The notes beneath the pieces are model-generated. The model worked only from the letters and a program-made list of their open reading frames with translations. It was not told where the DNA came from and did not search any database. A stretch of 64,000 nucleotides of DNA. It comes from Lacinutrix sp. Hel_I_90. Lineage in GTDB: Bacteria; Bacteroidota; Bacteroidia; Flavobacteriales; Flavobacteriaceae. A program made the position numbers and the translations under genes. The stretch spans positions 310,001 through 374,000 of the forward strand of contig NZ_JYNQ01000001.1 of assembly GCF_000934685.1 (NCBI RefSeq), in the 5' to 3' direction. The stretch's first letter is position 1. Every line of letters begins with the position of its first letter. Positions 56,188-58,110 of this stretch are shown piece after piece.

Positions 56188-57003
56188 ATGGAAAGATTAC
56201 CAAAAATAGGAATACCAATTATTATAGGAGTAATTATACTCATCATTATTTTAGCAAAATCAGCTGTAACTATAGACTCTGGTCAAGCAGGGGTGCTTTA
56301 TAAAACATTTGACAATGGTGTTGTAACAGATAAACCGCCTTTAGGTGAAGGATTTCATATTGTAGCACCTTGGAACGAAGTAATTATTTACGAAGTGCGT
56401 CAGCAAGAACTTTTTGAGAAAATGAAAGTATTGTCATCAAATGGTTTAGATATTATATTAGAAACCACTGCTTGGTACATGCCAAATCCAGTAGATTTAG
56501 GGAAATTACATCAAGAAAAAGGGGCAGATTATTTGGATAGAATTATTAAACCAGCATTGAGATCTGCAGCGAGAAGTGTGGTTGGTCGTTATACGCCAGA
56601 GCAACTGTATTCTAGTAAAAGAGATATTATTCAAAATGAAATTTTTGATGAAACAAAAAAAATTCTGGATGATCAATACATTATATTGAATGATGTCTTA
56701 GTTAGAGATGTTACCTTACCTCCAACAATTAAAGATGCTATTGAGCGTAAATTAAAGCAAGAACAAGAATCTTTAGAATACGAATTCAGATTGGTAACCG
56801 CAGCTAAAGAGGCTGAAAAAGTAATTATTGAAGCTGAAGGAAAAGCAGAATCAAATAGAATTTTAAGTGCTTCTTTAACAGATAAAATTTTACAGGATAA
56901 AGGTATTGATGCCACTATGAAATTAGCAGAATCACCAAACAGTAAAGTTATTGTTATTGGTTCTGGAGACTCTGGATTACCTATTATATTAGGGAACCAA
57001 TAA
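56188..57003 (+). CDS. Prohibitin/SPFH-domain membrane protein
   Basis: This 271-residue protein has one N-terminal membrane segment (about 8-28, IGIPIIIGVIILIIILAKS) and the SPFH/Band 7 domain: IDSGQAGVLYKTFDNGVVTD, the KPPLGEGFHIVAPW block, and a C-terminal coiled coil LKQEQESLEYEFRLVTAAKE followed by EKVIIEAEGKAESNRIL. Bacterial prohibitin-like proteins form membrane-associated scaffolds around proteases such as FtsH. It starts 18 bases after the VWA-like gene and is followed by the his leader. Confidence 0.9.
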   Translation: MERLPKIGIPIIIGVIILIIILAKSAVTIDSGQAGVLYKTFDNGVVTDKPPLGEGFHIVAPWNEVIIYEVRQQELFEKMKVLSSNGLDIILETTAWYMPNPVDLGKLHQEKGADYLDRIIKPALRSAARSVVGRYTPEQLYSSKRDIIQNEIFDETKKILDDQYIILNDVLVRDVTLPPTIKDAIERKLKQEQESLEYEFRLVTAAKEAEKVIIEAEGKAESNRILSASLTDKILQDKGIDATMKLAESPNSKVIVIGSGDSGLPIILGNQ

Positions 57004-57069
57004 AATTTTTATAAAAGATTAGGATTTGTAATAATTATTTTACAATCTTTGCAAAGAACAAAAACAGAA

Positions 57070-57126
57070 ATGACCTTTATTCAATCTCATCATCATCATT
57101 TTCATACTTGCCATCAAGCGAGCTGA
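57070..57126 (+). CDS. His operon leader peptide
   Basis: An 18-residue ORF, MTFIQSHHHHFHTCHQAS, contains six His codons, four of them consecutive, all CAT. A terminator hairpin follows 30 bases after its stop and hisG comes next. This is the standard layout of a translated leader controlling amino-acid operons by attenuation. A weak -7-like AATCTTTG lies at 57044-57051. It was too short for the ORF list and was found by eye. Confidence 0.85.
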   Translation: MTFIQSHHHHFHTCHQAS

Positions 57127-57156
57127 AAGTGTATTGAATAAAATCAACATATTTTT

Positions 57157-57188
57157 AAACCCGTTTGAGCGAATCAAGCGGGTTTTTG
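57157..57188 (+). terminator. Attenuator hairpin of the his operon
   Basis: AAACCCGTTTGA, loop GCGAA and TCAAGCGGGTTT followed by TTT form a 12 bp stem with one mismatch, starting 30 bases past the leader stop. When His-tRNA is plentiful, the ribosome would release this stem and stop transcription. No clear competing antiterminator was identified, although a small CTTGCCATCAAG hairpin lies within the leader ORF. Confidence 0.8.
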
Positions 57189-57227
57189 TATTTCTAACCT
57201 TTTTGATTTTGCTCAAATTTAATAAAA

Positions 57228-57247
57228 GACCCCGCTTCCTCGGGAGG
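57228..57247 (+). repeat. Short palindromic element before hisG
   Basis: GACCCCGCTTCCTCGGGAGG, followed by TTATT and the hisG ATG at 57253, resembles the second ychF unit (GTCCCCGC...GCGAGGATGACA). It ends in GGGAGG, which could act as a ribosome-binding sequence. Confidence 0.55.
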
Positions 57248-57252
57248 TTATT

Positions 57253-58110
57253 ATGAGTAAACTAAAAATTGCAGTTCAAAAATCAGGGCGTTTAAACGAA
57301 GATTCCATGGCGCTTCTAAAAGACATTGGCATCTCAATAGACAATGGTAAAGATCAATTAAAAGCATCAGCAGCTAATTTCCCTCTAGAGGTTTTTTATC
57401 TTAGAAATGGCGATATTCCCCAGTATCTAAGAGATGGCGTTGTTGATATCGCTATTATTGGTGAAAATGTTTTAATTGAAAAAGGACAAGAGTTAGTTAT
57501 TGCAGAGCGACTAGGATTTTCAAAATGTCGTGTTTCTATTGCGGTCCCAAAAGCCTCTAAAGCAAAGTGCTTAAAAGATTTACAAGGACAGCGCATCGCG
57601 ACTTCCTATCCCAATACGGTGAATCAGTTTTTAGAGCAAAACGGCATAACTGCACAACTACACATTATCAACGGTTCTGTAGAAATAGCTCCAAACATTG
57701 GCTTAGCAGATGGTATCTGTGATATCGTTTCAAGTGGAAGCACCTTATTCAAAAATGGATTAAAAGAAGTAGAAGTGCTTTTAAAGTCAGAAGCTGTTTT
57801 AGCGGTTTCACCTAGTATTTCAAAAGACAACCAAAAGCTTTTAGAAAAATTGCAATTTAGAATTCAATCGGTTTTAAGAGGTCAAAATTCTAAATACGTA
57901 TTATTAAATGCGCCAAATGACAAACTTGAAGAGATTATAAGTGTCCTGCCAGGCATGAAAAGCCCAACAGTTTTACCCTTAGCAGAAAAGGGTTGGAGCT
58001 CGGTACACTCAGTAATTGATAAAAATGAATTCTGGGAGGTTATCGATGAGTTGAAAGAAAAAGGTGCACAAGGTATTTTAGTTTGTCCAATAGAAAAAAT
58101 GGTACTCTAA
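57253..58110 (+). CDS. hisG: ATP phosphoribosyltransferase (long form)
   Basis: This 285-residue protein performs the first step of histidine synthesis, joining ATP and PRPP. Domains I and II carry KLKIAVQKSGRLNEDSM, YLRNGDIPQYLRDGVVDIAI, the GENVLIEKGQELVI block and CDIVSSGSTLFKNGL. The C-terminal ACT-like regulatory domain (about 210-285, LLNAPNDKLEEIISVLPGMK) marks the long form, which is feedback-inhibited by histidine and needs no HisZ. It is the first structural gene of the operon, and its stop overlaps hisD by one base. Confidence 0.95.
   Translation: MSKLKIAVQKSGRLNEDSMALLKDIGISIDNGKDQLKASAANFPLEVFYLRNGDIPQYLRDGVVDIAIIGENVLIEKGQELVIAERLGFSKCRVSIAVPKASKAKCLKDLQGQRIATSYPNTVNQFLEQNGITAQLHIINGSVEIAPNIGLADGICDIVSSGSTLFKNGLKEVEVLLKSEAVLAVSPSISKDNQKLLEKLQFRIQSVLRGQNSKYVLLNAPNDKLEEIISVLPGMKSPTVLPLAEKGWSSVHSVIDKNEFWEVIDELKEKGAQGILVCPIEKMVL

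Follow-up and report, generated by a model that had tools for sequence, protein, structure and literature searches.

A predicted histidine attenuator ahead of the hisGDCBHAF operon of Lacinutrix sp. Hel_I_90 and a conserved element beyond its terminator

The leader region upstream of hisG

The window analysed here, a stretch of 64,000 nucleotides of the genome of Lacinutrix sp. Hel_I_90, carries a hisGDCBHAF operon whose first gene is preceded by a leader region with a short histidine-rich open reading frame, a terminator and several segments with competing pairing partners (Table 1). The gene that precedes the leader (56188-57003) is read in the same direction, ends 66 nt upstream of the leader and has no NCBIfam match at E up to 1e-10. 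The first-pass annotation had described the small ORF as one of 18 codons at 57070-57126 with six His codons, four of them consecutive, and this was confirmed by sequence and translation: in the encoded peptide MTFIQSHHHHFHTCHQAS the His residues stand at codons 7-10, 12 and 15. No other small ORF (up to 45 codons) on either strand of the 64-kb window has 4 or more His within 6 residues. When the 300 nt before hisG were shuffled 1000 times with dinucleotide composition kept, 1.5% of the shuffles yielded a small ORF with 3 or more His among 6 residues and none reached 4 His in 6 residues, against 5 in the real leader. The leader folds at -34.5 kcal/mol versus -18.3 +/- 3.0 kcal/mol for 200 shuffles (z -5.4). 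Neither the ORF nor the fold of the leader is explained by chance. A short translated ORF with several cognate codons is one criterion for an attenuator, and we infer from the conservation of the ORF that the leader is translated.

Table 1. Features of the leader region of hisG (positions in the window; P1 to P3 are helices of the protector hairpin)
Feature	Position	Strand	Remarks
Probable promoter	57025..57051	+	TTTG 57025-57028 and ATCTTTG ending 57051; read from sequence
Leader peptide ORF MTFIQSHHHHFHTCHQAS	57070..57126	+	ATG...TGA, 18 codons, six His codons
Segment A, 5' strand of P1	57076..57085	+	codons 3-6; partner 57133-57142; covariation
5' strand of P2	57097..57104	+	codons 10-12; partner 57124-57131, including leader stop codon; covariation
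Apical strand of P3	57107..57111	+	partner 57118-57122; covariation
Segment B, antiterminator strand	57114..57120	+	TCAAGCG, codons 15-17; copies terminator 3' arm
Segment C	57124..57137	+	pairs P1/P2 strands if untranslated, or 57144-57157 if ribosome stalled upstream
Segment C*	57144..57157	+	antiterminator partner of C
Segment D, terminator 5' arm	57157..57168	+	57162-57168 pairs B; 57163-57168 and loop pair F
Segment E, terminator 3' arm	57174..57185	+	followed by T-run
Element F	57202..57219	+	complementary to terminator 5' arm and loop; beyond termination point
Small palindrome CCCGCTTCCTCGGG	57231..57244	+	repeat-like; between F and hisG
hisG	57253..58110	+	first gene of hisGDCBHAF; followed by hisD, hisC, hisB, hisH, hisA, hisF

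The putative promoter was assigned by applying the promoter consensus of Bacteroidota to the TTTG and ATCTTTG motifs, and if it is used, transcription would probably start near 57055-57060. Most relatives carry TTTG about 20 nt ahead of the leader ATG, as judged by eye, and a sigma-70 scan gave matches that were not above chance level. The intrinsic terminator (57157-57185) consists of a 12-pair stem, a loop of 5 and a T-run. The hairpin had previously been placed at 57157-57188 with 12 bp; the stem stands, and the former end at 57188 takes in part of the T-run, the real end being 57185. Two terminator-like sites, the second on the minus strand, occur in a 501-base stretch, against 0.3 expected in shuffles.

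The palindrome CCCGCTTCCTCGGG occurs five times in the genome, always on the forward strand and once with a mismatch, and palindromes resembling it were seen by eye directly ahead of hisG in a number of relatives; it is probably no component of the switch. A Shine-Dalgarno-like GGGAGG before hisG overlaps this repeat-like palindrome, which many relatives lack. Bacteroidota mostly initiate translation without Shine-Dalgarno pairing.

Conservation and competing structures of the leader

The DNA upstream of hisG was read in 91 related loci, a few of which represent one genome met twice (e.g. L009 and L084); the nearest relatives of this hisG come from Flavobacteriaceae such as Bizionia, Lacinutrix and Winogradskyella. 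An alignment of the leaders of other flavobacterial his operons, proposed earlier as a check, showed the His run and the hairpin to be conserved and covarying: a leader ORF with at least two His was present in 89 of the 91 loci, the two misses having only 51 and 180 nt upstream, and the terminator arm is identical in all 89 and in the window. The peptide usually has the form M..IQxHHH(H)FHxCxQA(S/R/N/K/I). A covariance model built from 52 rows, with a match defined as E up to 0.001, matched 213 of the 249 family genomes sampled; 14 of these matches are weak (1e-5 to 1e-3) and could be chance. Twenty-one genomes without a match were tested for hisG, namely 20 listed out of 36 in the family and one from a phylum-wide set; 20 of them lack hisG, and among the near-complete ones hisG was present in 0 of 15. 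G077 is the exception: it has hisG, its terminator shares the arm, and its leader, judged by eye, is poor and contains two His. For two genomes of the genus, hisG was matched in two pieces (L093/L095, G009; L092/L094, G004), and one of these split genes has internal stop codons, as sequencing errors or decaying genes would produce.

The protector hairpin as a whole spans 57076-57142 and is able to hide segment B. Its helix 1 (13 pairs including three outer ones) has 90.7% of cells paired and 5 pairs with changes on both sides. In an 82-row alignment, protector and terminator together have 93.6% of cells paired and 13 pairs changed on both sides, and their double-change cells number 94, versus 21.2 +/- 3.7 in shuffled alignments and 45 in the best slid version; the terminator helix taken separately is 99.7% paired. 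Covariation in these sequences strongly supports both predicted hairpins. RNAalifold recovered only the terminator from the whole alignment, after which the named structures were counted one by one instead. That the terminator merely ends the gene at 56188-57003, and that the His-rich ORF is a chance or unrelated occurrence, would suit the direction of that gene and its end so close to the leader, but this explanation is almost certainly wrong, given the joint conservation and covariation of leader, protector and terminator, and given that 20 of the 21 tested genomes without the element are also without hisG.

Judging from covariation, the leader stop codon belongs to the protector. Pair 57103:57125 is C-G in 59 and U-A in 13 of the 82 rows, and in L025, L033 and L067, for example, His12 is replaced by Tyr together with a change of the stop from TGA to TAA. 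Pair 57107:57122 is intact in 82/82 rows (C-G 43, U-A 18, U-G 11, A-U 10), and the inner P3 pair 57109:57120 is broken in 27/82. The covariation of residues 13 and 18 (T with S/R, I with N/K, N with I) reflects the pairing of their codons in P3 through 57107:57122. With the stop codon and the codons of residues 13 and 18 engaged in P2 and P3, much of the conserved peptide is therefore RNA structure. A role of the peptide itself, through nascent-peptide arrest or through binding of histidine or a metal by the His-rich peptide, would account for its good conservation, which includes the C-terminal QA(S/R/N/K/I); this reading is nevertheless very improbable, since B and P3 of the RNA occupy the stretch that encodes the conserved tail, residues 13 and 18 change jointly so as to preserve their pair, and the number of His is variable, with 3 in one relative (L021) and 6 in the window and in two others (L043 and L066).

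The first-pass annotation had reported no convincing alternative antiterminator fold, and this was refuted. In the predicted antiterminator, B (TCAAGCG) pairs with CGTTTGA of D, and pairing of C with C* closes the gap and brings B and D together; the fold of 57112-57176 consists of exactly B:D and C:C*, at -14.8 kcal/mol. The B-spacer-D pattern has a single occurrence in the whole genome, and the window, taken by itself, has a 7-bp B:D helix that is unremarkable (p 0.196). On the hisG tree, positions 57163-57168 of D have 0 changes and their partners in E have 30, versus 19 in D and 14 in E elsewhere, and changes per column number 1.7 in B and 13.7 in the columns immediately upstream of B. This constancy of D is a sign of double duty, but the pairing with F constrains D too, so it is not proof of B:D alone. 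B:D is nearly invariant inside the family and covaries little there; for the antitermination fold, the family alignment holds 11 double-change cells versus 7.7 in shuffles, 63 of 500 of which reach 11, and its covariation score is reached by 4/500. In other families, D reads CGTCTGA, with B as TCAGGCG (L174, L185) or as TAGACGG (L166, L167), and in some of these loci B and D change together. The gapless B:D helix has 7-10 bp in four of nine other-family loci, 6 bp in three and 5 bp in two, with p below 0.05 singly only in L166, L167 and L185.

Folding under a stalled ribosome, another check proposed earlier, was carried out with a partition function, the edge of the ribosome being set from an assumed footprint and the length of the RNA being stepped along the transcript. 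It yielded the antiterminator for stalls at codons 7-10 when the RNA ends before the 3' arm is complete: with RNA to 57176, about 6.9 B:D pairs form with the edge for these codons, 4.3 (a partial helix) for a stall at codon 12 and none when the ribosome has reached codon 15 or the stop. In the absence of a ribosome, B:D also appears at 57172-57176 (4.6-5.7 pairs), and protector and terminator dominate by 57180; the calculation therefore does not establish termination of the untranslated leader. For stalls at codons 7 and 8, over half of the antiterminator has gone when the RNA reaches 57180. At equilibrium, completion of E favours the terminator in every case, that of the stalled ribosome included, so kinetics must decide. 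In the same calculation the E. coli his leader prefers its terminator as well, a weak test in that this fold did not separate a stalled ribosome from a ribosome at the stop.

The ORF, the competing pairings and their conservation were observed directly, as was covariation for protector and terminator, and the element is very probably a histidine-specific, ribosome-mediated transcription attenuator. The computed structures comprise a terminator between the ORF and the first gene, an antiterminator competing for its arm and a protector able to hide B. Beyond them we infer that the ribosome stalls, that it is coupled to the polymerase, how the leader behaves when untranslated and how it responds to histidine, as follows: (i) when charged tRNA-His is scarce, a ribosome would wait on codons 7-10 and cover the 5' strands of the protector, B:D and C:C* would form, the terminator would come too late and RNA polymerase would continue into hisG; (ii) when histidine is plentiful, the ribosome would reach the stop codon and cover B and C, D:E would form and transcription would end near 57186-57190; (iii) in a leader without translation, B should be masked by P1-P3 and the terminator should form. 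The his attenuator of the first-pass annotation is thus strongly supported (89/91 leaders, shared terminator arm), its label of translational attenuation being wrong, as the anatomy is that of transcription attenuation by a stalled ribosome.

Two further leaders were noted in the same genome. Before pheA (L198:1278-1410) there is a Phe-rich leader, MKIANNTYYSWFYFFFNKENETLYM (...WFYFFF...), followed by a terminator, which from its sequence would be a phenylalanine attenuator of the same layout. Another locus (L199, reverse strand, from 1521 on) matches the Bacteroid-trp model with 60.7 bits (cut-off 49), with the leader MNTNLNHTWWWNSRKNNS (...TWWW...) and a terminator.

Spread in the phylum and relation to known attenuators

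In the phylum-wide set the covariance model matched 62 of 395 genomes, of which 40 belong to the family, 7 to the same order and 15 are more distant. In the same order there is, among the genomes listed, one more without a match besides the 7, and of the 15 class- or phylum-level matches only two (G403 and G503) are stronger than 1e-5. Weak second hits of model R1 within one genome (about 35-48 bits) were not counted as further attenuators, as they are often overlapped by a hit on the opposite strand, as ordinary bidirectional terminators would be.

Outside the family, 39 genomes were hand-picked, with and without model hits and not at random; 32 have hisG, and 30 loci were fetched. With ATG, GTG or TTG allowed as start, 30/30 loci have, within 300 nt upstream of hisG, a small ORF in which 6 residues include 3 or more His, versus 0/30 on the other strand and a shuffle expectation of 0.9. 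Many of these loci have a terminator after the leader; a simple terminator search was negative in 12 of the 29 that were scored, of which at least L182 and L174 show one by eye. In family f3 (the six loci L187-L192, whose DNA is Bacteroides-like in look), no terminator was recognised between leader and hisG. By eye, the His-rich leader of these loci has an apparently strong hairpin at its stop codon, and its read-out may be translational or Rho-dependent. Judging from these ORFs, the His leader is widespread in the phylum, and its read-out may be different in some lineages.

With E. coli hisL and the Rfam family His_leader (RF00514), the locus has in common a tandem-His leader peptide ahead of hisG as well as a terminator; E. 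coli hisL differs in having 7 consecutive His and a terminator sequence unrelated to that of the window. The E. coli hisL leader also forms a protector and an antiterminator. Against RF00514 the window scores 29.2 bits and so falls short of the 49-bit gathering score. In 20 loci (4 from the family of the window, its own included, and the rest from outside) every Rfam family stayed below its cut-off, Bacteroid-trp (RF01692) was unlisted at the his element even at E up to 5, and the T-box riboswitch model gave no match there. A study by Vitreschak and others (2004, FEMS Microbiology Letters) is said to name Bacteroidetes/Chlorobi in its abstract among the groups with candidate attenuators.

Attenuation of this type, which the earlier annotation called best described in Proteobacteria, is not restricted to them in print, where flavobacteria are covered too. 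The available text of a 2021 study on Flavobacterium psychrophilum (PMC9723704) reports strong indications of leader-peptide attenuation upstream of amino-acid operons, and it lists hisG and pheA among 5' elements without Rfam hits that are found in other Flavobacteriaceae. The structured 5' element of hisG in F. psychrophilum is very probably the same element as the one described here; as set out in that text, it comes without an antiterminator, a phylum-wide spread or element F. Bacteroid-trp is tabulated in PMC2864571 and likened to the E. coli trp leader in PMC6414381, according to the available parts of both; it is a predicted leader-peptide attenuator in the same phylum as the his element and serves the tryptophan operon. 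Firmicutes histidine attenuators, of a different phylum, are given for the B. cereus group, Eubacteriales and Erysipelotrichales in the accessible part of PMC9413887. Furthermore, a map of B. thetaiotaomicron mentions, in an excerpt, small ORFs reminiscent of leader peptides (PMC7366714), and a study of superphylum his genes refers to attenuation ahead of hisG where its introduction deals with regulation, the word "leader" being absent from the available text (PMC8305728). The core of the element is an ordinary, well-supported case of a known kind of switch that is partly in print, and the addition made here is element F.

Element F and the read-through transcript

The pairing of F was compared with 200 dinucleotide shuffles of the downstream stretch of each locus, and p was < 0.01 in 72 and below 0.05 in 81 of 90 loci (median z -5.1). 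The own pairing has a median of -15.0 kcal/mol versus -10.0 kcal/mol with the downstream DNA of other species, and it typically ranks eighth best of 90, because close relatives share both parts. In 52 aligned loci with short spacers, the 14 pairs of F have 82.5% of cells paired and 57 double-change cells, versus 24.3 in shuffles and 20 in the best slid version, and, counted by pairs, double changes are unremarkable (6 pairs affected versus 4.9). Nearly all of this covariation lies in five loop positions (84.6% of cells paired, 56 double changes/253), figures that come from the slide +3 row, which carries no shuffle control of its own; parsimony on the tree counts 20 double changes and 32 breaks for the five loop pairs. 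As far as these alignments tell, F covaries with the terminator loop and arm.

Among 40 further loci found with the model, F was detected at p up to 0.003 (mononucleotide shuffles) in 31 of the 36 parsed, L103, L146, L153 and L155 lying outside the parsed set. In a second family F is present in 7/7 loci, D being altered there and F altered with it; F was also found in L174 and not in L186. It is missing from L137, L152, L163, L164 and L165 though leader and terminator are kept, and no F was found in the E. coli his leader (p 0.20 and 0.39). No published element like F was recognised in literature searches that were not aimed at F and were mostly without subscription journals.

F ends 12-16 nt before the hisG ATG in 54 of 79 good-match loci and 33 nt before it in the window, with the palindrome between. 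It would act, if at all, on the read-through RNA, because it is not yet transcribed at the termination decision. In the predicted fold of this RNA the terminator hairpin stays formed, and F would therefore need kinetics or help to win. A lock of F on the hisG start was rejected as a general feature: the fold of the window itself pairs the two, but across 90 loci the own pairing scores -5.4 versus -4.8 with other starts, and it is lost in many loci where the hisG start differs.

The conservation of F, its position so near the hisG ATG, its rivalry for arm D and the His leaders without a recognisable terminator in f3 could also fit a leader that acts mainly on translation, in which position gates hisG initiation, F is the output and the hairpin is a leaky minor terminator. 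This is quite improbable in view of the nearly complete pairing of the terminator helix over 82 rows, with its T-run, of the five loci that keep leader and terminator without F, and of the failure of the pairing between F and the hisG start to be maintained when the start changes. Within the preferred reading, a transcription attenuator, F could provide a second gate by competing with B and E for D and reading the terminator loop; it might set the translation or lifetime of the read-through his mRNA, or the terminated leader might pair with full-length his mRNA in trans. Such a three-partner, two-level attenuator of Flavobacteriales and some kin is a tentative proposal, possible and on balance rather doubtful.

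In the annotation of these genomes, a search via Rfam would miss the element, because neither here nor in 20 related loci did any family attain its cut-off. The His-dense ORFs in 30/30 outside-family hisG upstreams speak against the view, put forward from Rfam in the available text of PMC3766115, that amino-acid attenuators are maybe of gamma-proteobacterial origin with very few transfers. A well-mapped switch in Bacteroidota would be a direct test of transcription-translation coupling, because leader-peptide attenuation needs a ribosome close behind the polymerase, and F, if functional, would add a layer of regulation that the E. coli his leader does not show.
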